Shown in pieces: positions 9,661 through 64,000 of a DNA stretch of 64,000 bases. This stretch comes from a virus. Every line of letters starts with the position of its first letter. The first letter of the stretch is position 1. The stretch covers positions 1-64,000 of the IMG/VR virus record IMGVR_UViG_3300047552_000880, one strand, 5' to 3'. The notes beneath the pieces are model-generated. The model did not search any database. It saw only the letters and a list, made by a program, of their open reading frames with translations, and was not told the DNA's origin. Made by a program: the position numbers and the translations under genes.

Positions 9661-9965
9661 GAGAACACCTTAGTAAAAAAATCTTCTGAGTTAATTGCTT
9701 TGTCGCAGATCAACAGATCATAAGAGGGTTTATGATTCATAATCAACTGATAATACATACAGCCCCAAGATGCAAGTTGTTTTGCCGTGAAGTCACTGTA
9801 ATCAACACCAGAAATATTTCCTCGGGCAGAATAATAAATGATCTGCTCACCTTCCATATGAAGGCGATTGAAATATTCAATTCTATCAGTCATCGGCACA
9901 CATTCTTCATATGTTCCGTTGGTGCGACAGATTGTTCCATCAATGTCAACGTAAATTTTAGCCAT
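9657..9965 (-). CDS. HAD-superfamily phosphatase-like protein
   Basis: A 102-residue minimal HAD protein. MAKIYVDIDGTICRTNG holds the nucleophile motif DIDGT at residues 7-11, YYSARGN near residue 46 supplies motif II (Ser), and the end LLICDKAIN gives motif IV. The small size resembles phage and LPS-biosynthesis phosphatases with no cap domain. Start 9965 was chosen because GGAG lies 10 bp upstream and the longer frame runs into the cupin gene. With its neighbours it may dephosphorylate a sugar phosphate. Confidence 0.8.
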   Translation of the reverse strand: MAKIYVDIDGTICRTNGTYEECVPMTDRIEYFNRLHMEGEQIIYYSARGNISGVDYSDFTAKQLASWGCMYYQLIMNHKPSYDLLICDKAINSEDFFTKVFS

Positions 9966-10317: not shown

Positions 10318-10706
10318 TTACTTCTTTCGATGATCTTTGAGCTAGAAAATCCGGGAATGCGTTCAAAGAACTTCAGTTCCTTGGCATACTGCGATCCGAT
10401 AACAAGTTTATCTCTGTAATCAGAACCAACCAGCATTATATCAGGATTCAGAATCTGAATGATCTGTTCGAGTTTTCTGTCTGTCTCAAAAATACCACAT
10501 GGGTGAACACCTTTAATCCGACTCAACTGGTACAGCCTCTGACCTTCTGTGTGTATTGGTCTATCTGCTCCCTTCAGCATCTTCACTCTTTCATCGGCAT
10601 CAATGGCAACATAAACATCACCAAGAGTAGACGCATAGTCAAAGAGTCTGAAATGACCGGGATGAAGAACATCAAACACCCCATTGATAAAAACAAGTTT
10701 TTTCAT
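10314..10706 (-). CDS. Cytidylyltransferase-like nucleotidyltransferase (RfaE/TagD type)
   Basis: A 130-residue protein with the full cytidylyltransferase signature: NGVFDVLHPGHFRLF (residues 8-22, HxGH at 16-19), DADERVK near 36, and the closing FSSSKIIE near 120. Family members attach CMP or AMP to glycerol-3-phosphate, heptose-1-phosphate and similar compounds. Together with cupin, HAD phosphatase and epimerase this suggests synthesis of a nucleotide-activated sugar or polyol. It overlaps the topoisomerase gene stop by 4 bp. Confidence 0.9.
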   Translation of the reverse strand: MKKLVFINGVFDVLHPGHFRLFDYASTLGDVYVAIDADERVKMLKGADRPIHTEGQRLYQLSRIKGVHPCGIFETDRKLEQIIQILNPDIMLVGSDYRDKLVIGSQYAKELKFFERIPGFSSSKIIERSK

Positions 10707-13700
10707 TTTCTCGGAAGCACAGAAATAAATCTGCTAGTAGAAGTCTCTGTTGAAAGCGTATCCAGTTTAGCTCTGATATCAGCAATCTCTGAAATCAGGT
10801 CAGACACCTTATCAGTCGTACATTCGTATATAGCGATATTACTGAATCTGGTTCCAAATTCATTTTCCGTAATATTGCTGCGAATGTAATCTAATAAGTC
10901 ATTCTTACTCATTTTTCGGAAGTCGATCTTATTGTCAATAACATGTTCAATGAAAAGTTTCTTGGCAGTCAGATATTCTACCTGATTATCATAGGTTTTC
11001 TTTTCGTAGTCCAATTTTTGCTGAAACTTTGAGAGTCGATACTCAACGAAGTGGTGTATCAACGAGGCAACGCTCTTGAAGATTTTTAGTTTACCGTGCT
11101 GATCCAATGTCGTTAGATTCTCGCTATGAATCTTCGCCAGCTTGAAATATGACAGCGGGTCTTTATCAATAGAATCTTTCTGCGCTCCAGTTACCTTAAC
11201 AGTGAACACGAACCCGGCGTCACTACAATGATCTTCATAGTCACGAATCTTATCAGAGTCAATCAATGTATTGAGAAAGGTGACATATGTAGCTCTGTCA
11301 TATCCAACTGGCAATTCACTGATTTTATACTGATACTTGCCAATGTACTCGATCTTTCCGAGGCTCTTATACTGATTATCCCCAATAGAGACAACTTCTC
11401 CGTTAAATGAAGGAAACGAAGGCAGTATATCTGCATTGGTATCAAGAAATTTTGTTGGGTTCTTGATACATTCTTTCACAGCGGCTACCAATGAATGTGT
11501 ACTACGCGGAAGAATATTTGAAGCAAAACCAACAGCGATACCAGAAACACCATTGACAAGAACCCAAGGGATAACAGGTAGATAGTGCAGCGGAGCACAT
11601 TGTTCAGGATCATCTGAATAATCAACGACTTCTTCATCAATAAAAAATTTCTTGAAATTATCACTGAGTTTAGCATAGATATAACGTGGCGCAGCAGGTT
11701 CCTGAATCAACCTCGAACCAAAGTTACCCTGACCCTCAAAAATAGGAGCATTGTTAGACCATTCGGCAGTCATACCATTGATAGCAGCAATAGCAGAAAC
11801 TTCGCCATGATGATATCCATATTTGGCAACACTACCACCCAACTCAGATAACTTCTGAAACCCCTTTGGTGAATTCAACATCGCATGAACAAGAATTCGC
11901 TGAACAGGCTTCAGACCATCGATGACGCTTGGAATCGCCCGATTCTCTATTGTATACATTGAGTAATCAAGATACTCGGTGTCAATTGCACTGGTAATCG
12001 TTTTCTTGTCAGTCACAACAGGCTGAACAAAATCTGTGTTCAACATCCATTCTTTTCTGGCATCAGCGGAGTCACCGAAAGCCATTTCAAGGCGCTCAAT
12101 TCCTTCTGGTGTCACTGTGACATATCTAGGGTTATTGATGACCTCAGAATAGATATCCTTTGGCATTGACCCCAATCCCTTGAAGTAAGAAACATTCCAA
12201 CCAGTGGAATCAAACTTCTGAAATTCATCTATTGTGTCAAAGGTTTTTACTTGCTTACCTTTTTTGCAATAGTAAAGCGGAGCCAGTAACCTGACAACTC
12301 TACCGCCATCGAACAGTTCTTTCCAATGAGAAAACAGATTCAGCAACAGACAGAAGATGTTATTACCATCTGTATCCATATCCGTGAATATTGCGATACG
12401 ACCGTAATTTAAATTCGTTGCTGGCTTGCCGAATTCTAGACCAATGATACTTAGTAACTCAGAGATTTCTTTGTTCTTCAGAATTTCAATCGGCTTCATT
12501 CCACGAACATTCATGACCTTCCCCTTAAGAGGGTATCCACCATGAATCTTTGGGTCACGAACTGTTAACAGGCTACCAAGAGCAGACTGACCTTCTGTAA
12601 TACACAGAACTGTCTGTGAACGATCTTTATTCGTTGCAGCAATATGATTGATGATAGGTGTACGCGAAAGAGTCTTCTTTTTCTTTTCTAGTTCGCGCCG
12701 TTCTTCCAATTCTTTTTTGTGTAGGATAGACTGAATCATTGGATCAATGATTTCAGGCGTGTTCAGAACACTTTTTGCGATCTTATCGAAGTCAAACCCA
12801 CTAAGATGACTAGAAAGCTCTGCAACAGTATTCGTTAAACGTTCTTTGGTCTGACTATCAAACTTCATATTAACGAAGTTACGAAGAACAGTCACAACAG
12901 TAAGATGTTGACGGATTGAGTTAGGAAGAACATCAATCTTATGTTTCTTCTTGATGTGCTGGCGCAATGGTTCAATTACACGGTCAACAATATAATTGAT
13001 ATGCGTTCCGCCGTTCTTTAACCACAGACCATTACAATAGGAATGCAATTGGAATTCTTCTGTTGCGCCGCTTGGCGCAAGAATAATTACACCAGCAGAA
13101 TTTTCTGCAATGACATTGACTGGATTAAACTTCGCTGCATACTCTGAAATTTTCTTCACTCGAATGGGTTCATCATTAAACGTGAATTTGATTTCAGGGA
13201 AACAGACAGCCAGATTCTCAAATTGATCTTTGAAGAAGTCAATGTGGTCTTGAGTCAACTCAGATAGCCCGAATGCAGCAACATCGGGAATGAAACTGAC
13301 TCTGGTAAATTTTTGTGTCGATTCCTTGGTGTGAATATTCTTGATATTCGCATTACCATTACACAGCAACCGGAGATATGTCTTTCCATCAGAGGTTTCT
13401 CCAATGAATTCTGTTGAGAAAACATTGGTCAGAAAACTACCAACTCCATTTGCGCCAATGGTTTCACGGCTGTCATCAAAATTCGAACCTGCACGAGCCT
13501 GAGTCCATGCAAGAACAGGTCTATATTGATTTGTTCCATCAACAATGGTAACAGGAATACCTCGACCATTATCTTCAACAATCACCTGATATGGTTCACC
13601 AAGAAGACCAAGGTCAACTTTCTTGATACTCACGCTGATCTTATTAGCGAACTTGTATTTTGTGCGAACAGCTTCATCAATCGAGTTATCAATAATTTCT

Positions 13701-13852
13701 CGAATAATTTTACACAGCGCCGGAACAATGGACAATGTTTGTTTCTGTCCAAAGAACATTCCTGTAATTTCTTCTACTGTCGCTGATCCAGCATACATCT
13801 GGACTCGTTTACGGATGTGTTCTGCATCCGTTAGAATTTTGAATTCACTCAT
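10703..13852 (-). CDS. Single-chain type II DNA topoisomerase (fused T4 gp39-gp60-gp52)
   Basis: A 1049-residue protein containing both halves of a type IIA topoisomerase. ATPase domain: EIIDNSIDEAV near residue 52, VEDNGRGIP near 92, GANGVGSFL near 133. TOPRIM: CITEGQSALGSL near 418 and FTDMDTDGNN near 489. Cleavage domain: PSVIDGLKPVQR near 644 and catalytic tyrosine in AAPRYIYAKL near 720. The C-terminus is a coiled region. T4 splits these functions over genes 39, 60 and 52 (about 1118 residues in total); here they form one chain, as in eukaryotic Top2. It relaxes DNA during replication. Downstream, the sugar genes overlap its end. Confidence 0.95.
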   Translation of the reverse strand: MSEFKILTDAEHIRKRVQMYAGSATVEEITGMFFGQKQTLSIVPALCKIIREIIDNSIDEAVRTKYKFANKISVSIKKVDLGLLGEPYQVIVEDNGRGIPVTIVDGTNQYRPVLAWTQARAGSNFDDSRETIGANGVGSFLTNVFSTEFIGETSDGKTYLRLLCNGNANIKNIHTKESTQKFTRVSFIPDVAAFGLSELTQDHIDFFKDQFENLAVCFPEIKFTFNDEPIRVKKISEYAAKFNPVNVIAENSAGVIILAPSGATEEFQLHSYCNGLWLKNGGTHINYIVDRVIEPLRQHIKKKHKIDVLPNSIRQHLTVVTVLRNFVNMKFDSQTKERLTNTVAELSSHLSGFDFDKIAKSVLNTPEIIDPMIQSILHKKELEERRELEKKKKTLSRTPIINHIAATNKDRSQTVLCITEGQSALGSLLTVRDPKIHGGYPLKGKVMNVRGMKPIEILKNKEISELLSIIGLEFGKPATNLNYGRIAIFTDMDTDGNNIFCLLLNLFSHWKELFDGGRVVRLLAPLYYCKKGKQVKTFDTIDEFQKFDSTGWNVSYFKGLGSMPKDIYSEVINNPRYVTVTPEGIERLEMAFGDSADARKEWMLNTDFVQPVVTDKKTITSAIDTEYLDYSMYTIENRAIPSVIDGLKPVQRILVHAMLNSPKGFQKLSELGGSVAKYGYHHGEVSAIAAINGMTAEWSNNAPIFEGQGNFGSRLIQEPAAPRYIYAKLSDNFKKFFIDEEVVDYSDDPEQCAPLHYLPVIPWVLVNGVSGIAVGFASNILPRSTHSLVAAVKECIKNPTKFLDTNADILPSFPSFNGEVVSIGDNQYKSLGKIEYIGKYQYKISELPVGYDRATYVTFLNTLIDSDKIRDYEDHCSDAGFVFTVKVTGAQKDSIDKDPLSYFKLAKIHSENLTTLDQHGKLKIFKSVASLIHHFVEYRLSKFQQKLDYEKKTYDNQVEYLTAKKLFIEHVIDNKIDFRKMSKNDLLDYIRSNITENEFGTRFSNIAIYECTTDKVSDLISEIADIRAKLDTLSTETSTSRFISVLPRK

Positions 13853-51568: not shown

Positions 51569-53143
51569 ATGGCAATCACACTATCACAATATCTTCAAGT
51601 CGGGGCTAATGGTCCAATTGGTATAACCGCTGGCGGCACGGGCGGCACAACTGCTGCTTCGGCTCGTGCTTCGCTAGGTGCGGCAGCGGCAGGTGCTAAC
51701 ACCGACATTACTTCATTGTCAAGTGGTGTTTGGGCACCTTTGTTGAAAGGGTCTGGGAGCACTTATTCTGCGGCAGGAACAAATTTAGCTACAGCCGCCC
51801 CTATTGTTTCAGATACTGTGGTAGTCACGAGTAGCAGCGCAAGTGCATATTGTTTAGCACTTCCTGCATTTACAGATGATTATAAGAGCCAAAAAATAAC
51901 AGTATATAATCAGACCGCGTTGCCAATAAATGTTTATGCACAGGGAACTGGAACTATAACCTTAACACATACAGGCACTGCCCCTTCATTTTATACGATT
52001 CCTGCGATGGCTTCTGCCGTTTTTGACAGTGGGATTAGTGGAGCGAATGACAATAGATGGATTGTATCGAGTGCACAAGTTACCGACCCATCCGCCTTGA
52101 CAGCCGCTGTTCCTGCCAATAAAGGTGGTACTGGTCAGGTTTCGTATACAGTTGGTGATATTCTCTATGCGTCAGGAACCACAACAATCAGTAAATTGAT
52201 TGCTGCATCAACTGGTTTTGCATTGATTTCAAATGGAGTCGGTGTTGCTCCTAGTTGGGGTAAAATTGATCTAACCACAACTGTTAGTGGTACTTTGCCG
52301 GTTGCGAATGGTGGCACTGGTGTTACCACATCAACTGGTTCTGGTAATAATGTTCTCAGTTCAAGTCCTACCTTAACAACTCCTATTTTATCAGCGGCAA
52401 CGAGTTCAACGGCAGGTGCTATTGGTTATAGTACCGGTGTTCTGACATATGGCGACGGGTCTTCAACCATATCAATTGCTAACTTGACAGGCACTCAGAC
52501 ATTTAGCAACAAAACATTAAGTACAGGATGCTCGTGGGCGGGTGGTTTGATTACTCCTACTTATGGCGGTACAGGTGCTAATTTATCTGGTGCTGCTGGT
52601 GGTGGGGTTGCTTACTTTTTTGGTGGACAAATTTCTGTTACTTCGGCGGGAACAGCGGGTCAGGTTCTTCAATCAAATGGTGCATCGGCTCCTAGTTGGG
52701 TAACAATCTCTGGCGGTGCAACGCTTTCGGATGATACCACAACCAATGCATCTTATTATCCTGTCTTTGCTACCGCAACATCAGGAACAATGTCTACTGC
52801 CAAGGTTGCATCAACGAAACTGAATTTTAACCCTTCTACGGGCACATTGTCAAGTACACAATTCAATGCCACATCGGATTCTGATGTTAAGACCAATGTA
52901 GTTGCCGCAGAAGGTATTGCTATTGTCAATCAATTGAATGGCGTTGAGTTTGACTGGAAAGATGGTACAGGTCATTCGGCAGGTGTAATTGCTCAGGATG
53001 TTGAAACTGTTTTGCCATTCTTGGTTCAGACTGATCCTATTCATGGAAAGAGCGTCAACTATCTTGGAATCATTGCGTATCTTATTCAGTCGGTCAAGGA
53101 ACTAGATGCACGAGTGAAAGAATTGGAGAAATTGAATGGCTAA
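51569..53143 (+). CDS. Tail fibre with C-terminal S74 self-cleaving chaperone
   Basis: A 524-residue fibre. Repeats include NKGGTGQVSYTVGDILYASG, VANGGTGVTTSTGSGNNVLS and TGTQTFSNKTLSTGCSWAGG. The last 95 residues are an S74 peptidase/intramolecular chaperone: SDSDVKTNVVAAEGIAIVNQ (Ser-Lys catalytic pair in SDxxVK), NGVEFDWKDGTGHSAGVIAQ and the coiled-coil end SVKELDARVKELEKLNG. S74 domains drive trimer folding and then cut themselves off. Expected mature fibre ends just before the SDSD motif. Confidence 0.88.
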   Translation: MAITLSQYLQVGANGPIGITAGGTGGTTAASARASLGAAAAGANTDITSLSSGVWAPLLKGSGSTYSAAGTNLATAAPIVSDTVVVTSSSASAYCLALPAFTDDYKSQKITVYNQTALPINVYAQGTGTITLTHTGTAPSFYTIPAMASAVFDSGISGANDNRWIVSSAQVTDPSALTAAVPANKGGTGQVSYTVGDILYASGTTTISKLIAASTGFALISNGVGVAPSWGKIDLTTTVSGTLPVANGGTGVTTSTGSGNNVLSSSPTLTTPILSAATSSTAGAIGYSTGVLTYGDGSSTISIANLTGTQTFSNKTLSTGCSWAGGLITPTYGGTGANLSGAAGGGVAYFFGGQISVTSAGTAGQVLQSNGASAPSWVTISGGATLSDDTTTNASYYPVFATATSGTMSTAKVASTKLNFNPSTGTLSSTQFNATSDSDVKTNVVAAEGIAIVNQLNGVEFDWKDGTGHSAGVIAQDVETVLPFLVQTDPIHGKSVNYLGIIAYLIQSVKELDARVKELEKLNG

Positions 53144-54290
53144 TTTTCTATATAGCGGAACCAGTGGAACGCTAGAGGAAAAATATGTTACGTTCGATGA
53201 AATGGGGTTTGATTCTCCATCTAATTCTGCTGGATCGTTATGGGGTTGGGGAGACAATACAGATGGTCAATTAGGTCTTAACAATGTGACAAATGTAAGT
53301 TCTCCTGTTCAGATCGGTTCATTGACTGACTGGAAACAGGTGTCGATGGGAGGATATCATACAACAGCAATCAAAACAGATGGCACTCTTTGGAGCTGTG
53401 GAAATAATTTATATGGTCAATTAGGACTCAATGACACGACTAAAAGAAGTTCACCCGTTCAAATAGGATCGTTGACTAATTGGAAATTAGTCAGTTGCGG
53501 AAGGTATCATACAACAGCAATTAAAACAGATGGCACGCTCTGGGTTTGGGGATATAACAACCAAGGACAATTAGGGCTTAACAATGTGACAAATATAAGT
53601 TCTCCTGTTCAAGTAGGTACAATGACTGACTGGAAAACATTGACTGGGAATTTGTATAATACGTTTTCTGTTAAGAACGATGGTTCATTGTGGGGTTGGG
53701 GCGGCAATATTTTCGGTCAATTAGGACTTAATGACTATATATATAGAAGTTCACCGGTTCAAATAGGATCGTTGACTAATTGGAAACAAGTATCTATGTC
53801 AAGTGTCTTCTCTGTTGCCGCAATAAAGACAGATGGTTCATTGTGGGGGTGGGGGACAAATACTAACGGTCAAATTGGCTTAGGTAATACAACAGAATAT
53901 TCTTCTCCTGTTCAAGTCGGAACGATGACTAACTGGAAAACATTGTCAACCGGTGGCGTTGCTAACGTTCTTGCTACAAAGACAGATGGTTCATTGTGGG
54001 CATGGGGTTATAACTATGGTGGTCTTGGTCTAGGTGATAGCCTTGCCAGAAGCTCTCCTATTCAAGTCGGATCATTGACTAATTGGAAATCTGTTTCTTG
54101 TAGTACTTCACAAGGTTCTTCCTTTGCTGTTAAAACAGATGGCACTCTCTGGGCTTTTGGGCAAAATGCCTCTAAAAATCTAGGACTCGGCGATAACGTC
54201 AGTAATTCTTCTCCTGTGCAAATCGGAACATCAACTGGATGGAAATCGGTTTCTACTGGATACACTTCTGCCATTGCAATCAAATACTAA
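53136..54290 (+). CDS. RCC1 beta-propeller fibre tip protein, paralogue 1
   Basis: A 384-residue protein of about seven RCC1 repeats of about 50 residues, each with SLWGWGDN or TLWSCGNN-like starts, GQLGLN, SSPVQIGSLTNWK and a TTAIKTDGT strand. Overlaps the S74 fibre gene by 8 bp. RCC1 propellers in phages are likely adhesins at fibre tips. Two more copies lie at 54931 and 58043. The short N-terminal region (FLYSGTSGTLEEKYVTFDEM) is not shared with them and may attach it to the fibre. Confidence 0.88.
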   Translation: MANFLYSGTSGTLEEKYVTFDEMGFDSPSNSAGSLWGWGDNTDGQLGLNNVTNVSSPVQIGSLTDWKQVSMGGYHTTAIKTDGTLWSCGNNLYGQLGLNDTTKRSSPVQIGSLTNWKLVSCGRYHTTAIKTDGTLWVWGYNNQGQLGLNNVTNISSPVQVGTMTDWKTLTGNLYNTFSVKNDGSLWGWGGNIFGQLGLNDYIYRSSPVQIGSLTNWKQVSMSSVFSVAAIKTDGSLWGWGTNTNGQIGLGNTTEYSSPVQVGTMTNWKTLSTGGVANVLATKTDGSLWAWGYNYGGLGLGDSLARSSPIQVGSLTNWKSVSCSTSQGSSFAVKTDGTLWAFGQNASKNLGLGDNVSNSSPVQIGTSTGWKSVSTGYTSAIAIKY

Positions 54291-54299
54291 AGAAAAAAT

Positions 54300-54941
54300 A
54301 TGTACGCACTAATTCATAACAATCAAATTCAAGTTGGTCCTCGTCAATGGTCATATTCTTTCTTCAAGGAATATCTGGTTGAAGAAGGATTGGATTTTTC
54401 GGCGCTAACTGTTCGTGAGCAACCAACAGGTATTCACACATCAACTTATAGAATTGTTCCTGTAACAATTACAAAACACGCGAACGTTGAACCCATTTAC
54501 GAACAACCTTCTGGTCCGTTTTGGACAATCTACGAAGATCGTGTTGAGGGTGAATACAAATCGGCTCCTGTTTCTATTGATGCAGTCAAATCTATTCTGA
54601 AGCAAAAAGCAGCAGAAGAAAGATATAAGAAAGAAACCTCAGGAACCAAGGCAATTATCAGTGTCGGAGAAGTTAATCTATATACTGATCGTGATACTCG
54701 CAAGACTTATCTAGAGGCGTTGCAATTGATTCCTGACGATGTTTCTACATTCAATTTCAAATTCAGTAATGGATTCTTTCCGGTCAATAAAGGCGATCTG
54801 ACTTTGATTGTTTCAACAATTGTTACTCATGTTCAGGCTGCATTTGATTGGGAAGCTGGTATTGTAGCTGCTATTGATTCTGCTACTACTATTGCTGAAT
54901 TGAAGGCAATTGTTATTGAGGAAAAGAAGAATGCCATCTAA
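54300..54941 (+). CDS. Tail-fibre associated protein (DUF4376-like)
   Basis: A 213-residue protein with an N-terminal IHNNQIQVGPRQWSYSFFKE, and a C-terminal domain YLEALQLIPDDVSTFNFKFS with QAAFDWEAGIVAAIDSATTI, which resembles the DUF4376 fibre-associated domain. It sits between two RCC1 propeller genes. Likely fibre assembly or attachment. Confidence 0.65.
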   Translation: MYALIHNNQIQVGPRQWSYSFFKEYLVEEGLDFSALTVREQPTGIHTSTYRIVPVTITKHANVEPIYEQPSGPFWTIYEDRVEGEYKSAPVSIDAVKSILKQKAAEERYKKETSGTKAIISVGEVNLYTDRDTRKTYLEALQLIPDDVSTFNFKFSNGFFPVNKGDLTLIVSTIVTHVQAAFDWEAGIVAAIDSATTIAELKAIVIEEKKNAI

Positions 54942-56133
54942 TTTGACTGGTTTCCGGGAGAATGGGGTTGATATCAGTGACCTTTATTTGAATGGCTCGG
55001 GTATCAATGGAACCGATGATCGTGGTCAGGTTTATGATTATTTGACTGATACTGGTAAGATAAATTATGAAACCGGTTCATTATGGAGTTGGGGTTGGAA
55101 TGCATACGGAAATTTAGGACTAAACGACATTATAGATAGAAGTTCTCCTGTTCAAGTCGGTTCATTAACTAATTGGAAACAAATAACATCTTCATCTTCT
55201 GCTGGTCATTACCTTTCTACCGCGATCAAAACAGACGGAACTCTTTGGAGTTGGGGCAAAAATCAATTTGGCGAATTGGGACTCAACGACACGACTAACC
55301 GAAACTCTCCTGTTCAAGTCGGTTCATTGACTAATTGGAAACAAGTGTCTACCGGGGGGTTTTTTTCTTTTGCGATCAAAACAGACGGAACTCTTTGGAG
55401 TTGGGGTAAGAACGATGTTGGTCAATTAGGACTCAATAACCAAACGAATATAAGCTCTCCTGTTCAAGTTGGTTCATTAACTAATTGGAAATTGGTTTCT
55501 TGTGGTGCATATCATCAATCGTTTATTGACAATTACGGGCAGTTGTGGAGTTGTGGAAATAATTTATACGGTCAATTAGGACTCAATAACCAAACGAATA
55601 TAAGCTCTCCTGTTCAAGTTGGTTCATTAACTAATTGGAAATTGGTTTCTTGTGGAGACAGACACACAACAGCAATCAAAACAGACGGAACTCTTTGGAG
55701 TTGGGGTTGGAATGCGGTTGGTCAATTAGGTCTTAATGACACGGCATATAGAAGTTCACCTGTTCAAGTCGGAACAATGGCTAACTGGAAATCGGTTTTT
55801 TCTGGTGAGTTTATAACATTTGCCACAAAGACAGACGGATCATTGTGGGGATGGGGATATAATCTATACGGTCAATTGGGACTCAATGACACTACCGACA
55901 GAAGCTCTCCTGTTCAAGTTGGTTCTTTAACTAATTGGAAATCTGTCGCTGCGGGGCAATCTGTTGTATATGTAAAAAATGACGGGACACTATGGAGTGC
56001 TGGTAATAATGCGCATGGTCAATTGGGGCTAGGTGATAATTCTCATAGAAGCTCTCCTGTTCAAGTTGGTTCGTTGACTAATTGGAAACTAATTTCAGGC
56101 GGTTCTATGGCGATAATTTCCACGAAAGGTTAA
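54931..56133 (+). CDS. RCC1 beta-propeller fibre tip protein, paralogue 2
   Basis: A 400-residue protein: an N-terminal NLTGFRENGVDISDLYLNGS region, then about seven RCC1 repeats (SLWSWGWNAYGNLGLNDI, TLWSWGKNQFGELGLNDT). Start 54931 is favoured by GAGGAAAAGAAG over the frame start at 54910. Two adjacent blades are identical over 86 bp at the DNA level (55420-55505 and 55570-55655, period 150 bp), which shows very recent duplication or conversion. Confidence 0.88.
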   Translation: MPSNLTGFRENGVDISDLYLNGSGINGTDDRGQVYDYLTDTGKINYETGSLWSWGWNAYGNLGLNDIIDRSSPVQVGSLTNWKQITSSSSAGHYLSTAIKTDGTLWSWGKNQFGELGLNDTTNRNSPVQVGSLTNWKQVSTGGFFSFAIKTDGTLWSWGKNDVGQLGLNNQTNISSPVQVGSLTNWKLVSCGAYHQSFIDNYGQLWSCGNNLYGQLGLNNQTNISSPVQVGSLTNWKLVSCGDRHTTAIKTDGTLWSWGWNAVGQLGLNDTAYRSSPVQVGTMANWKSVFSGEFITFATKTDGSLWGWGYNLYGQLGLNDTTDRSSPVQVGSLTNWKSVAAGQSVVYVKNDGTLWSAGNNAHGQLGLGDNSHRSSPVQVGSLTNWKLISGGSMAIISTKG

Positions 56134-56136
56134 ATA
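56129..56136 (+). promoter_or_regulatory. Late-type promoter element GTTAAATA
   Basis: GTTAAATACC overlaps the stop of the RCC1 gene, 27 bp before the methyltransferase-like start at 56164. The same TAAATACC appears at 59186-59193. Confidence 0.5.
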
Positions 56137-56163
56137 CCATCCCACAAACAAACAATTTTCATT

Positions 56164-56721
56164 ATGAAAAAACTGAATCTAGGATCGGGGTACAAAAGAT
56201 ACCCCGATTTTATTAACATCGATCAAGATCATCATTGTAATCCCGATATTGTAACTGATCTAGAATCCCCGAATTGTCTCTCCATGATACCCGATGATTC
56301 GGTCGAGATAATTCTTGCACATCACATTCTTGAACATATCGGAAGTAATTATATTCCGCTGCTCAAAGAATTATATCGAGTCGCCAAACACAAAGCAATT
56401 ATTGATATACGGGTTCCTCATCCGAATCATGAAATATTCTTGAATGACCCGACTCATAAAAGACCAATTACGGTTGAAGGTCTAAGATTGTTCTCAAAAC
56501 AATATAACCTACAAGAAATTCAAAGAGGCGGAAGTTCATCGACACTCGGAATCATGAATGACATTGATTTTGAGATTGTTCACTTTGATTACATTCATGA
56601 TCCATATTACGACAACATCAAGACAACTGCAACACCCGAGCAATTGGAAAGAATATTTCGTTCAGAAATAAATACGACTCTTGAAATTCACGTTGTTCTA
56701 ACTGTTATTAAAAATGTTTGA
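56164..56721 (+). CDS. SAM-dependent methyltransferase-like protein
   Basis: A 185-residue class I methyltransferase. KLNLGSGYKRYPDFINIDQD (residues 3-22) holds the SAM-binding GxGxxxx and acidic motif II; VTDLESPNCLSMIPDDSVEI and AHHILEHIGS (about 57-66) give motifs III-IV; YRVAKHKAIIDIRVPHPNH fits the later core. Phages of the cyanophage branch carry similar proteins close to tail-fibre genes. Substrate (protein, lipid or glycan) is unknown. Overlaps the next gene by 8 bp. Confidence 0.78.
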   Translation: MKKLNLGSGYKRYPDFINIDQDHHCNPDIVTDLESPNCLSMIPDDSVEIILAHHILEHIGSNYIPLLKELYRVAKHKAIIDIRVPHPNHEIFLNDPTHKRPITVEGLRLFSKQYNLQEIQRGGSSSTLGIMNDIDFEIVHFDYIHDPYYDNIKTTATPEQLERIFRSEINTTLEIHVVLTVIKNV

Positions 56722-58039
56722 TTACCAAAATTCATCTATTATGCAAGCCGCCTTTGCTGCAAAGAGCATTGGTAGATCGATGGACATGTATGCGCCATTG
56801 AAAACGATTGCTCAGTATATCTATGCAATCGATAAGCTAGACGAGATTGCCTATATTCAAAATGAATTGAAGGATTACGAGGGTTCAGTTGCGACTCTCA
56901 ACAAGATGGCATCCATTTCGATGAATAATCAGGAAAAATATTCGATTAGAGCCAATCTTGCGAAGATGTACAATCATCTGAATAAACCAGAAGAATCGCT
57001 TGCTGAGTCACAATTGAATGATATGGTGTCAAATGGTAATGACCTAGACACATGGATGGAAATGGCGTTCAGCTATTATCTGTTAGGTCAATATAATAAG
57101 TCCGAAGAAATGATGCGCAAGATTTCTTGTATTGATAATATCTCGGATGAATTAAGAGGTCGAGTTGAATACAACCTAGGCTCCTATGATATTGAGCATG
57201 GCGAGTTCAAGAAAGGAATTCGTGGCTTCATTGATGTTGGACATAAGATCGGTATTTGGCATCCGAAGGGCATTGATGGTGTTCCTACATGGAAGGGCGA
57301 AACCGATAAACAATTCATTGTCATTCATGGCGAAGGCGGTATCGGTGACGAATTGATCAACTTTCGTTTCACCAATAATATCAAGTCAATGGGATTGACT
57401 CCTATCTGGATTACTAATCACAAAGAACTGGTTCCTGTGTTTGAGCGCCATGACGTGAAGACGATAATGAATCATCAAATTGATAAAGAGAATTCGTATC
57501 AGATCAATGCAATGTACTTACCAATTGTACTAGACCTTGATGCAGATCAGTTATGGAGTGGCGCTTATTTGATTCCTTGTTCCGAACATGTTGCCAAGTG
57601 GCGTGATATATTACCGAGCGGTAGAAAGATCGGTGTCAAGTGGAGTGGCAATCCTGCCTATGAACAGGACCTACATCGAGGGCTGACAACCGATTTTATT
57701 GATGCATTGGAATTCGATGCAGTGAAGGTGAATCTTCAGATCGATGCGTTGAAGGATCATTATTTCTCGGTTCCAATAAATAGTATTGAAGACACATTGG
57801 CAATCTTATCGCTTGTTGATGTTACGGTTACTTCATGCACATCGGTTGCTCACATGGCAGGGGCAATTGGTTCAAAAGTTATTGTATGCCCTCCTATTGC
57901 TTGCTACTATGTATGGCTAGGGCGGAATGATGGATACAGTAACTGGTACGGCAAAAACACAATGGTGGTTCGACAGACGAAACACAATAATCGTGATGAT
58001 GTTTTGGTGAAGGTTAACGAATTACTGAGTAAGGTTTAA
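56714..58039 (+). CDS. TPR protein with a glycosyltransferase-like C-terminus
   Basis: A 441-residue protein. The first half is built of helices with TPR-like spacing (KTIAQYIYAIDKLDEIAYIQ, MEMAFSYYLLGQYNKSEEMM). The second half has HGEGGIGDELINFRFTNNIK, WITNHKELVPVF and GRKIGVKWSGNPAYEQDLHR, resembling the TPR/glycosyltransferase-9-like proteins in cyanophages. It could transfer a sugar to a fibre or surface component. No catalytic residue can be assigned with certainty. Coupled to the methyltransferase and followed by an RCC1 gene. Confidence 0.65.
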   Translation: MFDYQNSSIMQAAFAAKSIGRSMDMYAPLKTIAQYIYAIDKLDEIAYIQNELKDYEGSVATLNKMASISMNNQEKYSIRANLAKMYNHLNKPEESLAESQLNDMVSNGNDLDTWMEMAFSYYLLGQYNKSEEMMRKISCIDNISDELRGRVEYNLGSYDIEHGEFKKGIRGFIDVGHKIGIWHPKGIDGVPTWKGETDKQFIVIHGEGGIGDELINFRFTNNIKSMGLTPIWITNHKELVPVFERHDVKTIMNHQIDKENSYQINAMYLPIVLDLDADQLWSGAYLIPCSEHVAKWRDILPSGRKIGVKWSGNPAYEQDLHRGLTTDFIDALEFDAVKVNLQIDALKDHYFSVPINSIEDTLAILSLVDVTVTSCTSVAHMAGAIGSKVIVCPPIACYYVWLGRNDGYSNWYGKNTMVVRQTKHNNRDDVLVKVNELLSKV

Positions 58040-58042
58040 TAT

Positions 58043-59188
58043 ATGGCAAGCGGGTTTCAGATTAACGGAGTTGATACCGATACAATTTTTCTTAATCGTT
58101 CGGATACGATTTTGGATAGTGTTTCTGTGCCCGGTAAGTTGTGGAGTTGGGGGAAAAATTCATACTACGGTCAATTGGGACTCAATGACACTATCAACAG
58201 AAGCTCACCTGTTCAAGTTGGAGTATTGACTAATTGGAAACAAATCGGTGGCGGTAACGATTCCCTAATTGCAATTAAAACAGACGGTACACTTTGGAAT
58301 TGGGGTTATAATTCACATGGTCAATTAGGACTAGGGGATATTTCTCATAGAAGCTCTCCTGTTCAAGTCGGTACGTTGACTAATTGGAAACTAATTTCAC
58401 AACATGCATCTCAATATAGCAGAATATCAATCAAAACAGATGGAACTCTTTGGAGTTGGGGATATAATAATAACGGCGAGCTAGGGTTAAATGATGTAAA
58501 CCACAGAAGTTCTCCTGTTCAAGTTGGTTCATTGACTAACTGGAAATATATCAGTTCGGTTAATCACGCAATTGCGATTAAAACAGATGGAACTCTTTGG
58601 AGTTGGGGATATAATCCATATGGTCAATTAGGACTAGGGGATATTTCTCATAGAAGCTCTCCTGTTCAAGTCGGTACGTTGACTAATTGGAAATCGGTTT
58701 CTTGCGGTGCTAATCACAACGCAGTGATTAAAACAGATGGAACTCTTTGGAGTTGGGGGCAAAATACATACGGAAGTTTGGGTCTAAACGATACCTCGCC
58801 AAGAAGCTCTCCTGTTCAGGTTGGTTCATTGACTAATTGGAAATCAGTTTCTTGTGGAAACTACCATGTTCTTGCGATTAAAACAGATGGTACATTGTGG
58901 AGTTGGGGTATTAATGGCAACGGGCAATTGGGGCTAAATGACTTAACCTATAGAAGCTCTCCTGTTCAAGTCGGTACGTTGACTAATTGGAAATCGGTTT
59001 CTTGCGGTGATGCACATACTACCGCAATTAAAACAGATGGAACTCTTTGGAGTTGGGGAACGCACAACAATGGTCAATTAGGTCTTAATGGAACGACACA
59101 AGTAAGCTCTCCTGTTCAAGTTGGTTCATTGACTAATTGGAAATCTGTTGCAGGTAGTTTCAGAGCATCTTTAGCAATCTCATCATAA
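58043..59188 (+). CDS. RCC1 beta-propeller fibre tip protein, paralogue 3
   Basis: A 381-residue protein with an N-terminal FQINGVDTDTIFLNRSDTIL, similar to that of paralogue 2, and about seven RCC1 blades. Long DNA identities between blades are seen, for example near 58318-58390 and 58619-58691. A late-type element follows at 59184. The three propellers in one region suggest alternative or mixed receptor-binding tips. Confidence 0.88.
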   Translation: MASGFQINGVDTDTIFLNRSDTILDSVSVPGKLWSWGKNSYYGQLGLNDTINRSSPVQVGVLTNWKQIGGGNDSLIAIKTDGTLWNWGYNSHGQLGLGDISHRSSPVQVGTLTNWKLISQHASQYSRISIKTDGTLWSWGYNNNGELGLNDVNHRSSPVQVGSLTNWKYISSVNHAIAIKTDGTLWSWGYNPYGQLGLGDISHRSSPVQVGTLTNWKSVSCGANHNAVIKTDGTLWSWGQNTYGSLGLNDTSPRSSPVQVGSLTNWKSVSCGNYHVLAIKTDGTLWSWGINGNGQLGLNDLTYRSSPVQVGTLTNWKSVSCGDAHTTAIKTDGTLWSWGTHNNGQLGLNGTTQVSSPVQVGSLTNWKSVAGSFRASLAISS

Positions 59189-59191
59189 ATA
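59184..59191 (+). promoter_or_regulatory. Late-type promoter element CATAAATA
   Basis: CATAAATACC at the stop of the RCC1 gene, 28 bp before the first sulfotransferase start at 59219. Closest match in the window to the T4 late promoter TATAAATA. Confidence 0.55.
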
Positions 59192-59218
59192 CCAATCCAG
59201 CAATCTTTATTATTCAAA

Positions 59219-60010
59219 GTGAAACAATTTTTCTTTCTATCTGGTCTACCAAGATCGGGTTCAACTGTTCTTGCTAGTATCCTTAATCAGCATCCCGAGA
59301 TTCACGTAACGCCAACTTCTCCGTTACTTGATTTACTTTACCTCAATGAACAGAACTACCGATCAAATCCATCGGTAATCGCGAATCCAACTCATACCTC
59401 ATATGAGTCTATTTCAAAATCAATCATTGAAGGTACATGGAAGCACGTTAATAAACCAATCATCGTTGATAAACACAGAGCATGGGCAAGAAATATTCCT
59501 ACCATTCGACGTGTGTTTGAAACCGATCCAAAGGTTATTCTGACAGTTCGCTCGATTCCCGAGATTGTTGCCAGTTTCTTTACTCTCCTAAGAAAAACAA
59601 AACAATCGCCACATTACATTGATCAAATTCTATTACAAAGAAATGCACCGATCAATGATATGAACCGCGCATATATTCTGTGGCATGATTTTATTGCAAA
59701 TACCGTTGAATCGGCGTTGATCGGGTTCAAAACAAATCGAGCAAATATTCATCTGGTTGATTACAATGACTTGATACAATGTCCTGAAGAAGAACTGAAA
59801 AAGATATATCAGTTCCTTGCGCTTCCATCATATCAACATGATCTAAACAATATCGTTAATGATACCAATGACGATGATCTCGCGGCATGGGGAATCGAGA
59901 ATCTTCATCAAATACGCCCGGTATTGAAAAGAACATCATCAGATGCAAAAGAAATACTCGGTGATGTTTATCATGTCGTCAATTCATTGAATGCCGAGTT
60001 CTGGAGATAA
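59219..60010 (+). CDS. Sulfotransferase family protein 1
   Basis: A 263-residue protein. The PAPS-binding loop is SGLPRSGSTVLASILNQHPE (residues 8-27), and the 3'-phosphate site is ILTVRSIPEIVASF (about 111-124). The DDDLAAWGIENLHQIRPVLK end is shared with the next gene. Begins with GTG; no ATG lies before the binding loop and no strong ribosome site is seen. Sulfotransferases move sulfate from PAPS to a hydroxyl or amine of a sugar, lipid or protein. The acceptor is unknown. Confidence 0.82.
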   Translation: MKQFFFLSGLPRSGSTVLASILNQHPEIHVTPTSPLLDLLYLNEQNYRSNPSVIANPTHTSYESISKSIIEGTWKHVNKPIIVDKHRAWARNIPTIRRVFETDPKVILTVRSIPEIVASFFTLLRKTKQSPHYIDQILLQRNAPINDMNRAYILWHDFIANTVESALIGFKTNRANIHLVDYNDLIQCPEEELKKIYQFLALPSYQHDLNNIVNDTNDDDLAAWGIENLHQIRPVLKRTSSDAKEILGDVYHVVNSLNAEFWR

Positions 60011-60012
60011 TT

Positions 60013-60795
60013 ATGTTTTATATGATCGGTCTACCAAGATCGGGTTCAACTGTTCTTGCTAGTATCCTTAATCAACATCCCGAGATTCATGTAACTCCAA
60101 CTTCTCCTTTGCTGGATCAATTGGTTGCGAATCAGGATATCTATCATTCATTACAGGCAGTTCGCGCAAATCCTGTTCCGGGTCAACTGGAAAATATCAC
60201 CCATTCCATTATCAATGGTATGTACAGTCATATCAAGAAGCCTATTATCATTGACAAGAATCGGGGATGGGGAAAGAATGTCAGGGATGCAACCACACTT
60301 CTTGGAAAAGAAATGAAAATGATTGCGACCACTCGTTCACTTCCTGCGGTCATGGAATCTTGGCTCCGCATTATTAAAAAGAACCCCAATAGTTTCGTTC
60401 ACCGTGAACTAAAAGGTCTTGTTACCGATGCTCGAATCCTTTCCTATATGTGGGAACATCAGGTCAAAGATTGTGTTGAAAGTCTTCATACCGCTATTCA
60501 ATACAATAAGAAAAATGTATTGATCGTTGATTATGATGCTCTGGTAGATAACCCGGTCGAACAATTAAATCGAGTCGTTGAGTTTACGGGCGCATCTGAT
60601 TTCACATTTGATCTGAATAACATTAAGAGCGAAACGAAGGATGATGACCTTGCTGCATGGGGTATTGATGGCATGCATACTGTTCAGCCATCTCTGAAGC
60701 GTTTAAACGCGATTACAGGCGTTTTAACACAGGAGCAGTATGTTCGGTTCAAATCGCTTGAAAAATCGTTTGTAGGCGTTTTTAATGCGTTCTAG
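60013..60795 (+). CDS. Sulfotransferase family protein 2
   Basis: A 260-residue paralogue of the preceding gene, starting 3 bp after it with ribosome site GGAGATAATT. It has MIGLPRSGSTVLASILNQHP (residues 4-23) and IATTRSLPAVMESW near 110. The first 90 bases of the shared domain are almost identical in DNA to the first copy (47 bp exact, 60028-60074), whereas the middle differs, so the 5' end seems homogenised. Both act in the same late operon and may use different acceptors. Confidence 0.82.
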   Translation: MFYMIGLPRSGSTVLASILNQHPEIHVTPTSPLLDQLVANQDIYHSLQAVRANPVPGQLENITHSIINGMYSHIKKPIIIDKNRGWGKNVRDATTLLGKEMKMIATTRSLPAVMESWLRIIKKNPNSFVHRELKGLVTDARILSYMWEHQVKDCVESLHTAIQYNKKNVLIVDYDALVDNPVEQLNRVVEFTGASDFTFDLNNIKSETKDDDLAAWGIDGMHTVQPSLKRLNAITGVLTQEQYVRFKSLEKSFVGVFNAF

Positions 60796-60976
60796 CCACA
60801 TTCTAACATTGCTCAAGACAATTACTTGGCGAATAACAGGAAGTGGAGCGACTTTTGCAATATCTTACATCTATACAGGAAGTACTTCATTTGCCTCTGG
60901 TATTGCACTGACTCAGATGGTTGTCAATAGCATCCTTTACTATGTACATGAAAGAATTTGGAATTATGTTGAATAG
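60785..60976 (+). CDS. DUF2061 small membrane protein
   Basis: A 63-residue protein with the DUF2061 pattern: LLKTITWRITGSGATFAISY, TGSTSFASGIALTQMVVNSI and the closing YYVHERIWNYVE. Two predicted membrane segments. In bacteria DUF2061 is known next to or fused with sulfate-activation genes such as APS kinase, which fits the neighbouring sulfotransferases. Overlaps both neighbours by 11 bp. The AGGCG before the ATG is a modest ribosome site. Confidence 0.8.
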   Translation: MRSSHILTLLKTITWRITGSGATFAISYIYTGSTSFASGIALTQMVVNSILYYVHERIWNYVE

Positions 60977-61577
60977 AATTTATATTGTTGATGATTTTTA
61001 TCCTAATCCTGATGGCGTGATGGAGAATGTCTTTAATGACGAACGAGAAGATAACTCGGGCGGCAATTACGCGGGTGTCATGAATTCAACCAATTTCTTT
61101 ACTCCTGAACATCAAAGAGTGTTTCAGCAATTGGTCGGGCATCCTGTTTCGGCAGGAACATCTTTAACCGGAAAGTTTCGTTTCTCGTGTGTCAATGATA
61201 CTTATAAGCAGAATATTCATTTTGATGCCGGTGGTGAGAATCTTGCATGGGCAGGTGTTGTCTATATGCAGAAACATTATGAAGAAGGAATCGAAGGAAC
61301 TTCATTTTATAAACACAAGGAAACTGGATTAGAAGAAATACCTAGGTCGATTGAAGGTTGTTCTAAATATGGATGGAATTCAATTGCTGATCTTAAGAAG
61401 TTTCTGGATACCGATGGTGTCGATGATTCGAAATGGATCAAGACACTAACAGTTCCTTATAAGTACAATCGATTGGTATTATTTCGCCCTTGGTTGTTTC
61501 ATGCTCCGGGAAAGGCTTTCGGCAGTTCAATTGAAACATCACGAATCGTTCAAACAATTTTTCTTAATCAGGAATAA
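60966..61577 (+). CDS. DUF6445/2OG-Fe(II) oxygenase-like protein
   Basis: A 203-residue protein beginning MLNRIYIVDDFYPNPDGVME, which resembles the DUF6445 family related to 2-oxoglutarate/iron oxygenases. The possible iron-binding residues are IHFDAGG near residue 83 (HxD) and LFHAPG near 183. If active, it would hydroxylate a protein or small molecule. Start 60966 is set by TTTGGAATT; frames from 60921 or 60948 are possible. Phage homologues lie near fibre genes too. Confidence 0.65.
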   Translation: MLNRIYIVDDFYPNPDGVMENVFNDEREDNSGGNYAGVMNSTNFFTPEHQRVFQQLVGHPVSAGTSLTGKFRFSCVNDTYKQNIHFDAGGENLAWAGVVYMQKHYEEGIEGTSFYKHKETGLEEIPRSIEGCSKYGWNSIADLKKFLDTDGVDDSKWIKTLTVPYKYNRLVLFRPWLFHAPGKAFGSSIETSRIVQTIFLNQE

Positions 61578-61579
61578 AC

Positions 61580-61876
61580 ATGCCATTTCCAACATCAAGC
61601 GCTTCGTTCAATGCAACGCCCGGTGCATATGATTACTCTGAAATTCTAGGTGCATTCTATACTATGTTCGAGACACGGTTGACTGCAATTGAAACTAACC
61701 AACTTGCATTAAATACTGATATTGCATCTATTAAAAATAATATCCAGACTCTTATGGATCGTGCGACCGATGCAAATAAAGGTATTGTCACTAAGGGTGC
61801 AGCGGAGTTTTCGCCCGAAGGTTATCAGACATATTTGCAACTCAAGGAATATTACACCGCACGCGGAATTGGATAA
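61580..61876 (+). CDS. Hypothetical protein
   Basis: A 98-residue protein with ribosome site AGGAATAAAC. Its centre is a heptad-like helix (MFETRLTAIETNQLALNTDI, ASIKNNIQTLMDRATDANKG) and the end SPEGYQTYLQLKEYYTARGI. A coiled-coil virion or assembly protein is likely from the pattern; no family recognised. Confidence 0.65.
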   Translation: MPFPTSSASFNATPGAYDYSEILGAFYTMFETRLTAIETNQLALNTDIASIKNNIQTLMDRATDANKGIVTKGAAEFSPEGYQTYLQLKEYYTARGIG

Positions 61877-61880
61877 TTAA

Positions 61881-64000
61881 ATGCAGAATTTGTTCCATGA
61901 CACAATGGCAGCAGCCGCAATGAATGTATTGCGCGAGAATCCTAATATCTCCAAGGTTGATAAAGGTCTGCTGCACGAAATCACGGTTCAAATAGCAAAG
62001 GCAACTGCAAAGGGAAACGAACCAGTTGCTGCCATGATCGATAATCTGGTCAACGAACTCAAAAAGAGCGAACAGATAAAAGATGATGCGTTTGAGAGAC
62101 TTCTGAAATCAGAGAGAGAAAATACCAGACGTATTATTGATGCCCTCAATAAATGGAACGCAAAACAAGGTTATGGAACCGACAAGGAATCTATCAAAGA
62201 TTCTATGCGCGAAGTCATTGAGAAGATCGAGAACTCCGAAGACAAGAAAGAACTTGCTAAGGAGTTCAAGGAATTCCATCGAGAGTTTATTGCAATCGTT
62301 GATACATTAGAGGCAGAGGCTCTAAAGAGTTCACATCATCTTAGTACAATAGAGCAACATACCAAAGAATTAAAATCAATTGACAAGGTTCTTCATACAA
62401 TTGATGAAGGCGAACATCAGCTTGTTAATCAAGAGCATTCCGATTCAACTGTCAAAGAATCCTATACTTCCGAGACAGAAAAAACTTCTGATTCTGAGAC
62501 AGAAAAAATTTCTGTTGAAAGTTCGACCGATACGCAAAAAACTAATAAAGTCGAAGCAAAGCAGTCTTCTGATACCAATGTACTAAAAGAAACTGTTGAT
62601 CAGAGTTCAAAGACAGACGCGAAATCTGAAAATAAAACAAATACCACTGGACAGAATACACCTGAGACAAAGAAAGCAGTAACTGCCAAAGAAGCATTTG
62701 CCTCTGGTGTTAAACGTCATGCAGAAGATTATAACCCATATTATAGTCAGGGTATGACACATGACGTAAAAAGAATGGTAGGCGCGGGCGTTGCTAACGT
62801 TCTTATTACCAAATTAGCGCAGACAGGTAAGTTTGATAAGAACGGAAATGAAATTAAGCCGAAGGAACCTGAAGTCGATTCCGATGGTAATCCGATTATA
62901 AAGAAACCTTCATTCAAGGAAATGTTTGTTCAACAGGCGCAGATGCATGCTGAGAACTATAATCCTTATTTTAGTCGAGGTATCGTCGGTGATGTGATGC
63001 ACATCGGTGGTATGGCTCTGCGTGGCGCTGTCATTCATAAAATATCTGAACTGTTCCATAAAAAGACTGTCGAGAAGAATACAGAACAGAAAGACTCGCC
63101 TGAATCTTCGATTGAGCCGAAACAGCAATCTGATGTATCCGAGTTAAAAACAGCAACAGAAACCGTTTCAAAGAACACGGCAAATAATGTTGTGAATTCT
63201 TCTATTGAGAAGAAAGAATCTTCTACTGATCAAATGGTCAATATTTTGACCAAAAAATCTGATGAAATAACAACTGCACCAAGTGTTGTTATGGGCAAAC
63301 CTTTAACCAAGGCAGCTATCAGAAAACAGGAAAAAGAAAAGAATCGGGTCAACTTCACTAAAGTCAAAAAGGCAAGAGAAGCCGCGATTGCTGATCCTAC
63401 ACCTGTTATCAATACGCCAGTTGAATCAAAGAAGATCGAACAGAAGATAACAGATTCTACAACAGAAAAGCTGTCTGATGTAGCAACTAAATCAAATAAC
63501 GTTGAATCAAAGAATACAACAAGTTTACTGGAAAAGGTAAGCGTAAAGGCATCTGAATCAAATAATGTTTCTAACGTTGAATCAAAGAATACTAATTCAT
63601 CACAAGTAAAAACATTATATGATGTAAATAAAACTTCTACTGATTCTCTGTCTGATGTAGCAACTAAATCAAATAACGTTGAATCAAAGAATACAAATAA
63701 AACTTCTACTGATTCTCTGTCTGATGTAGCAACTAAATCAAATAACGTTGAATCAAAGAATACAACAAGTTTACTTTCAAAACTCAGCCAAAATACATCT
63801 AATGTAGCCAGTAATGTTTTTGGTGCGCTGAAAGAAAAATACGATCAACTAACTTCTCGTAAAGAAAATAAAACTTCTACCAACGAATCTCTAAGAGATA
63901 CTGTTATCAATTTGCGCGGAAAGACTATTGTCAATTTCATGGGTAAATTGAAACAAGATCGCAAACAGTTGGAAGCAGTAGGAGAAGTAACAAAGAAAGA
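61881..64000 (+). CDS. Long repetitive Ser/Thr/Lys-rich protein, 3' end outside the window
   Basis: The frame starts at ATG 61881, is open for 706 codons and runs off the right edge. N-terminal 160 residues are helical (AAMNVLRENPNISKVDKGLL). Residues about 278 and 355 start two copies of a motif, HAEDYNPYYSQGMTHDV and HAENYNPYFSRGIVGDV. Between and after these lies low-complexity charged sequence. From residue about 530 there are near-identical 23-residue repeats (TSTDSLSDVATKSNNVESKN). Unknown; probably a virion or tail-associated protein because it follows the fibre operon with no gap. Confidence 0.75.
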   Translation, partial: MQNLFHDTMAAAAMNVLRENPNISKVDKGLLHEITVQIAKATAKGNEPVAAMIDNLVNELKKSEQIKDDAFERLLKSERENTRRIIDALNKWNAKQGYGTDKESIKDSMREVIEKIENSEDKKELAKEFKEFHREFIAIVDTLEAEALKSSHHLSTIEQHTKELKSIDKVLHTIDEGEHQLVNQEHSDSTVKESYTSETEKTSDSETEKISVESSTDTQKTNKVEAKQSSDTNVLKETVDQSSKTDAKSENKTNTTGQNTPETKKAVTAKEAFASGVKRHAEDYNPYYSQGMTHDVKRMVGAGVANVLITKLAQTGKFDKNGNEIKPKEPEVDSDGNPIIKKPSFKEMFVQQAQMHAENYNPYFSRGIVGDVMHIGGMALRGAVIHKISELFHKKTVEKNTEQKDSPESSIEPKQQSDVSELKTATETVSKNTANNVVNSSIEKKESSTDQMVNILTKKSDEITTAPSVVMGKPLTKAAIRKQEKEKNRVNFTKVKKAREAAIADPTPVINTPVESKKIEQKITDSTTEKLSDVATKSNNVESKNTTSLLEKVSVKASESNNVSNVESKNTNSSQVKTLYDVNKTSTDSLSDVATKSNNVESKNTNKTSTDSLSDVATKSNNVESKNTTSLLSKLSQNTSNVASNVFGALKEKYDQLTSRKENKTSTNESLRDTVINLRGKTIVNFMGKLKQDRKQLEAVGEVTKK
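63463..63776 (+). repeat. 69-bp in-frame tandem repeat inside the long ORF
   Basis: Two adjacent 69-bp units (63626-63694 and 63695-63763) are identical, each 23 codons. Part of the unit also occurs once at about 63471-63528, with the same following bases ACAAGTTTACT seen again at 63764-63774. It adds repeats to the protein and would allow length change by slippage or recombination. Confidence 0.8.

Follow-up and report, generated by a model that had tools for sequence, protein, structure and literature searches.

A candidate sulfation module beside the tail-fibre genes of a T4-like phage

The DNA analysed here, called the window throughout, covers 64,000 nt of a virus record that is 125,892 bases long. 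This virus, a T4-like myovirus, is known from metagenomes. T4-like markers in the window include a gp5-type hub, a baseplate wedge and SbcC/SbcD-like genes; the closest match of the hub protein is from a cyanophage (40%). A scan of the window for the T4-type late-promoter motif TATAAATA gave a single occurrence, against 3.4 expected by chance, a number that says nothing about timing. A search of positions 56000-64000 for RNA families found none. A near-identical relative, IMGVR_UViG_3300042988_001121, extends to 178 kb, and a search of this record for psbA found no such gene.

The gene cluster of interest lies on the plus strand. At its upstream end is a tail-fibre protein with an S74 chaperone domain (51569-53143, +; Pfam PF13884, 2.5e-11). 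Two RCC1-repeat proteins of the fibre-end cluster (53136-54290 and 54910-56133, both +; Pfam RCC1), a methyltransferase-like protein (56164-56721, +; phrog_6636, 9.4e-11) and a protein with weak TPR matches (56714-58039, +) follow. By eye, and without HMM support, the C-terminal half of the TPR protein is glycosyltransferase-like. A further RCC1-repeat protein (58043-59188, +; Pfam RCC1) lies immediately 5' of two tandem sulfotransferase genes, ST1 (59219-60010, +; 263 aa, GTG start) and its paralogue ST2 (60013-60795, +; 260 aa). Next come a small predicted membrane protein of family DUF2061 (60785-60976, +; 63 aa) and a DUF6445 protein (60966-61577, +; 203 aa; Pfam PF20043, 1.3e-11), each gene overlapping the one before it by 11 nt. 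The DUF6445 protein has, by eye, a 2OG-oxygenase-like HxD...H...R pattern. An earlier note on this DNA had drawn a candidate module from 59219 to 60976; its genes are as described, and the overlapping DUF6445 gene had been missed. Three RCC1-repeat proteins are encoded downstream of the fibre gene and ahead of the sulfotransferases, and RCC1 repeats recur in related clusters.

The remaining component, a stand-alone APS-kinase-like protein of 149 aa, is encoded about 54 kb from the sulfotransferases and on the opposite strand. The earlier note had recognised this protein but placed it at 4313-4756; the open reading frame is 4313-4762 (-). Both sulfotransferases, the DUF2061 protein and the kinase are all present in the near-identical 178-kb record, which excludes an assembly accident.

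The sulfotransferases were identified with confidence, in agreement with the earlier note. ST1 and ST2 score 75.2 and 53.4 bits against Pfam Sulfotransfer_3 (PF13469; 1.2e-20 and 5.3e-14), where the cut-off is 27, and both contain the PAPS-loop GLPRSGST. The 3'-phosphate-binding residues R111 and S119 are invariant across 16 sequences of the family; His230, too, is invariant in the family. ST1, the one sulfotransferase modelled, gave an AF2 model with a pLDDT of 92.8. Its nearest solved fold is human TPST1 (VIA Z 19.2; 232 residues aligned, 3.3 A). Curacin and olefin-synthase domains (16.9 and 16.0), heparan 3-O-sulfotransferases (13.9) and cytosolic enzymes (~12) rank lower, and all 50 of the 50 matches listed are sulfotransferases or sulfotransferase domains. 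The TPST-like fold is nevertheless accompanied by only 16-17% identity to human TPST1/2. Moreover, in a phmmer alignment to TPST1, the TPST catalytic glutamate (E99 of TPST2) aligns with Thr33 of ST1. Hence, the fold leaves the substrate undecided, and tyrosine sulfation of the TPST type, considered on the basis of homology, was dropped because the catalytic Glu is absent.

Beyond their first 50 residues, ST1 and ST2 are 32.9% identical. We compared them with the two sulfotransferases of a related IMG/VR contig, L197. Over the same region, ST1 is 40.2% identical to the first L197 protein and 37.4% to the second; ST2 is 46.6% identical to the second and 30.0% to the first. This pairing indicates that the tandem pair probably predates the split between the window phage and the L197 phage. 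A repeat search also found that the PAPS-loop ends of the two genes (59243-59332 in ST1 and 60028-60117 in ST2) share 93% DNA identity over 90 nt. Such a near-identical stretch is likely to reflect later gene conversion.

The kinase scores 35.7 bits against Pfam APS_kinase (PF01583; 1.1e-8), above the cut-off of 21.1, with the match limited to residues 5-93. Conversely, it falls far short of the CysC equivalog NCBIfam TIGR00455 (31.8 bits against a cut-off of 138.7) and is under every NCBIfam cut-off among the matches listed. A Walker A P-loop, GLPGSGKT, is present. The AF2 model (pLDDT 94.5) best matches APS kinases, with Z scores of 17-18 over ~146 of the 149 residues. APS kinases, or the APS-kinase domains found in sulfurylase or PAPS synthase chains, occupy all of the top 30 structural matches (Z 14.9-18.0); gluconate kinase (14.8), Kti12 (14.1) and PSTK (13.5) rank lower. 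Compared with true CysC, the APS site is altered. It has NADxxR in place of DGDxxR, with the Arg kept; F54, which matches the Phe of FS, and R59 are also kept, and Gln62 replaces the Asn of CysC ENxRR. The CysC lid, KGLYKKAR...GI...Y, is absent, and a short RFEDTNKVF, invariant or almost so across the family, stands instead. Given the loss of the lid and the failed NCBIfam cut-offs, we assign the protein to a short-lid APS-kinase-like subfamily rather than to plain CysC. A kinase of this type would be expected to make PAPS from APS and ATP.

The DUF2061 protein matches its profile well (PF09834; 71.4 bits against a cut-off of 23.1, 8.3e-20), and so its earlier assignment stands. The same note had stated that DUF2061 occurs beside or fused to sulfate-activation genes, and this proved correct. 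In Aestuariivivens (L195), DUF2061 lies between an IMPase-family (cysQ-like) gene and cysC, in overlapping frames; viral genomes have it as a fusion with the short-lid kinase. The Aestuariivivens locus differs in that its CysC is full length (APS_kinase 1e-64) with a normal lid, and no sulfotransferase was seen in it. A cellular setting was also found for the short-lid kinase itself: on a Burkholderiales MAG contig (L194, 6001-7286), its gene overlaps a Sulfotransfer_3 gene by 4 nt, among neighbours of housekeeping type (pyrG-, kdsA- and eno-like, named by eye). Among 80 bacterial genomes, G092 and its relatives, the kinase was present in one, G092 itself, and so no common bacterial source was found in this set.

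We scanned IMG/VR with the kinase, which gave at least 403 loci, of which 80 were kept. The kinase was seen as a stand-alone gene, as a DUF2061 fusion (L007, L015 and L016) and as a fusion with an NMNAT-like nucleotidyltransferase (L022, L033 and others). Sulfotransfer_3 matches were present in 24 of 50 kinase-bearing records, and exceeded the cut-off in 21. Of the 14 non-redundant records with a sulfotransferase, 11 have it no more than 7 kb from the kinase; random placement would give such closeness with a combined probability of ~3e-6. In L022, L033, L056 and L208, the two reading frames share a few nucleotides. The DUF2061 profile matched 17 of the 50 records, nearly always as a kinase fusion or an adjoining gene.

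As a control we used 33 terminase-seeded T4-like records, which replaced a gp6-like-seeded set of 11 loci. One of these has a sulfotransferase and two have the kinase; the record with the sulfotransferase was also kinase-positive, and the 31 kinase-negative records contained no sulfotransferase. The association gives a Fisher p of ~1e-5 by record, or 0.001 with the kinase records collapsed to clusters, values that are rough because only T4-like records served as controls, these were not de-replicated, and fragments are common among the records.

In more than half of the kinase clusters, no recognised sulfotransferase lies nearby. A phage of Stenotrophomonas, for instance, encodes a kinase-NMNAT-like fusion with no sulfotransferase annotated in its vicinity. 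In four loci (L029, 6596-7234; L036, 4797-5426; L047, 7148-7777; L057, 6313-7999), genes adjoining the kinase have PRSGST-like N-terminal motifs. None of the four had a Pfam match, and they were therefore left out of the sulfotransferase counts; they are possibly unrecognised sulfotransferases. Other clusters without a Sulfotransfer_3 neighbour (L008, L015, L018, L023 and L024) have in common that the kinase is flanked by proteins that look by eye like NodU-type carbamoyltransferases and GDSL proteins.

The converse scan was seeded with the sulfotransferases and ranked by similarity to ST1 of the window. It covered 82 loci, including three obtained earlier. The kinase was inside the 8-kb flanks at 15 of these, a count mildly biased by the inclusion in the seed alignment of some sulfotransferases picked for their kinase neighbours. 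After clustering at 75% identity, 11 of 38 sulfotransferase clusters had a kinase within 8 kb, nine of them within 750 nt.

The L197 contig is the most informative relative. Its order is fibre end, RCC1, DUF4376, RCC1, RCC1, TPR protein, DUF6445, methyltransferase, sulfotransferase, sulfotransferase, kinase-nucleotidyltransferase and DUF2061. Several frames overlap, including the run from the sulfotransferases through the kinase to DUF2061. The homologue of the methyltransferase-like protein thus immediately precedes the sulfotransferases, and nearly all genes of the window cluster have L197 counterparts. The simplest reading of the sequences is that the window phage carries an operon of the L197 type minus the fused kinase, and has a stand-alone kinase elsewhere. 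Further versions are seen in L216 (sulfotransferase, nucleotidyltransferase and kinase-DUF2061, overlapping) and L199 (sulfotransferase, DUF6445 and kinase, overlapping). The DUF6445 gene is therefore a recurring member of the module: it separates the sulfotransferase from the kinase in L199, and L197 has it in the corresponding cluster. Homologues of the TPR protein were found in the L197, L212, L215 and L208 clusters. Between the sulfotransferase and kinase of L212, an open reading frame at 8779-9672 encodes an N-terminal part that resembles the window DUF6445 protein by eye, with no Pfam DUF6445 match, and a degenerate, kinase-like C-terminal part.

NMNAT-like nucleotidyltransferases are fused to or adjoin the kinase in L073 (7995-9110), L008 (7633-8612), L022 and L033. 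Together, this domain, the kinase and DUF2061 form a three-part set that could mimic ATP sulfurylase plus APS kinase. The profile of the domain matches NadM/NMNAT structures (4.2e-9), and matched no ATP sulfurylase chains; hence, an ATP-sulfurylase role stays hypothetical. The domain was considered, and rejected, as part of the window module: the sole match in the 178-kb relative is partial and falls in a 339-codon frame elsewhere.

The earlier note had treated the kinase, sulfotransferases and DUF2061 as one functional set. Their fusion or overlap in related viruses agrees with this proposal, as does the outcome of a search for PAPS reductase and ATP sulfurylase genes. PF01507 (CysH/CysD, PAPS_reduct) and PF01747 (ATP sulfurylase) were found in none of 18 module records, which include the 178-kb relative and several fragments. 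This fits PAPS production for sulfation better than it fits assimilation, and leaves the sulfotransferases as the obvious consumers of PAPS. Several points weigh against the proposal: the distance and opposite strand of the window kinase, its lost lid, Gln62 and NCBIfam scores, the many kinase clusters in which no sulfotransferase was recognised, and cyanophages S-SRM01 and S-SKS1, which have the sulfotransferase but no such kinase. In the pathway that we propose, the short-lid kinase would phosphorylate host-made APS to give PAPS, and DUF2061 may act as a small membrane-associated partner of this PAPS-making step. With this PAPS, ST1 and ST2 would then sulfate an acceptor associated with the tail-fibre and RCC1 cluster. 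The identities of the genes, the folds and the recurring operon are observed; the catalytic steps, the acceptor and what DUF2061 does are inferred, as is the timing put forward in the earlier note, with PAPS supplied early and sulfation late.

The position of the sulfotransferases among fibre, RCC1, TPR/glycosyltransferase-like and methyltransferase genes suggests that a protein or glycan is decorated. NodU-type carbamoyltransferase and glycosyltransferase genes beside the sulfotransferases of relatives suggest the same. The acceptor would most likely be a fibre protein, or a glycan prepared by the TPR/glycosyltransferase-like, methyltransferase and DUF6445 proteins; the RCC1-repeat protein at 58043-59188 is a candidate target. 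PAPS supply coupled to sulfotransfer is, in our view, the probable function of these genes. Granted that function, a fibre-linked acceptor seems reasonably likely, and for the whole we lean cautiously towards a sulfation module whose acceptor, on the fibre or on a surface, is only partly specified. A bolder proposal is a self-contained, compact phage sulfation pathway whose targets are tail-fibre proteins, RCC1 proteins or the glycans on either. Here, the kinase, an NMNAT-like stand-in for ATP sulfurylase, DUF2061 and TPST-fold sulfotransferases of relatives would be parts of one overlapping operon. We regard this only as a tentative possibility; if true, the product would be a sulfated bacteriophage virion.

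The sulfotransferases might instead modify host cell-surface sugars, such as LPS or exopolysaccharide, so that the receptor is altered and superinfection blocked, with PAPS supply unchanged. LPS sulfotransferases do exist in bacteria (LpsS, as cited in PMC12445080). The sole NCBIfam match of ST1 and ST2, albeit far under its cut-off, is the nodulation sulfotransferase NoeE, and the carbamoyltransferase and glycosyltransferase neighbours noted above would suit such a target. However, in the window, L197, L212 and L215 the sulfotransferases stand at the end of a fibre operon, in the company of fibre and RCC1 genes, and the ST1 fold is nearest to protein-tyrosine sulfotransferases. Neither point decides the acceptor and, viewed through sequence, a virion acceptor and a host-surface acceptor would be indistinguishable. 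We consider modification of the host surface rather unlikely. It is less likely still that the kinase has another substrate, for example as part of a NAD-salvage enzyme, and that the sulfotransferases rely on host PAPS alone. The fusion to an NMNAT-like domain in many relatives, the lost lid and altered APS site, and the several kinase clusters without a sulfotransferase would all be accommodated. Conversely, APS kinases come first among the fold neighbours, the kinase is linked to sulfotransferases and to DUF2061, which itself adjoins a true cysC in Aestuariivivens, and the window kinase has no fused NMNAT-like domain.

Phage cysC genes are usually viewed differently, as auxiliary genes of assimilatory sulfate reduction that serve cysteine supply; the kinase would then be independent of the sulfotransferases. 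In a 2025 review, cysC of aquatic phages appears under this heading, marked as not validated (PMC12713726). With no PAPS reductase or ATP sulfurylase family gene in the 18 module records, and with kinase and sulfotransferase as overlapping neighbours in many lineages, we think this role very unlikely. Sulfation of modified DNA bases is more improbable again, even though phage sulfotransferase-based modification systems have been described (Iyer et al. 2013, as cited in a metagenome paper, PMC10829341). A thymidylate-synthase-family (base hydroxymethylase) gene was sought in the 178-kb relative and none was found, which weakens this explanation, and the sulfotransferases are placed with fibre genes, away from replication genes.

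For the favoured interpretation, PAPS made for sulfation, the nearest parallel described is a predicted one in giant viruses of amoebae. The glycan cluster of Moumouvirus australiensis and Cotonvirus includes a SAT/APS kinase (Ma457) and a sulfotransferase (Ma461) for fibril glycans (PMC10117803). Virus-encoded sulfate activation plus a sulfotransferase is thus common to both systems. In the giant viruses, both genes are inside a cluster thought to decorate the virion surface, a prediction for which the authors call for experimental validation (PMC10117803). The giant-virus enzyme is a full bifunctional sulfate adenylyltransferase/APS kinase, whereas the phage has a short-lid kinase, no ATP sulfurylase, a DUF2061 protein and a tail-fibre setting. 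Cyanophages S-SRM01 and S-SKS1 encode members of the same sulfotransferase family (phrog_27463; 42% and 36% identity). The S-SRM01 gene is likewise near fibre, TPR, glycosyltransferase and epimerase genes. Unlike the window phage, each has a single sulfotransferase and neither genome has a kinase of the short-lid family; the only DUF2061 match among phage records was in one unrelated environmental phage. Mycobacteriophages Che8, Corndog and Myrna also decorate their own virion proteins with phage-encoded enzymes, the decoration being sugars only, with no sulfate reported in the part of the source consulted (cited in PMC12363180).

The function of phage sulfotransferases 'remains unclear' according to a 2023 paper (PMC10580990). 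We found no account of a phage kinase and sulfotransferase together, which is weak evidence as most subscription papers were outside the search. Sulfotransferase and cysC have repeatedly been reported as viral auxiliary genes; the recurring operon unites the two annotations in a single pathway, in which the kinase appears to serve sulfation rather than cysteine supply. Phage sulfotransferases would thereby gain a testable role, probably on the phage's own fibres or the host surface. Were the target on the virion, sulfate would be a new phage surface decoration, with a bearing on receptor binding and host range.

Two further genes on the minus strand deserve mention. A NAD-dependent epimerase/dehydratase family protein (7129-7965, -) is another possible glycan gene. 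The type II topoisomerase of T4 is split over several genes. In the window, a 1049-aa open reading frame (10703-13852, -) matches the large subunit of phage topoisomerase II over residues 2-606 and the family of the other subunit over residues 615-1042, and is thus a type II topoisomerase in one chain.
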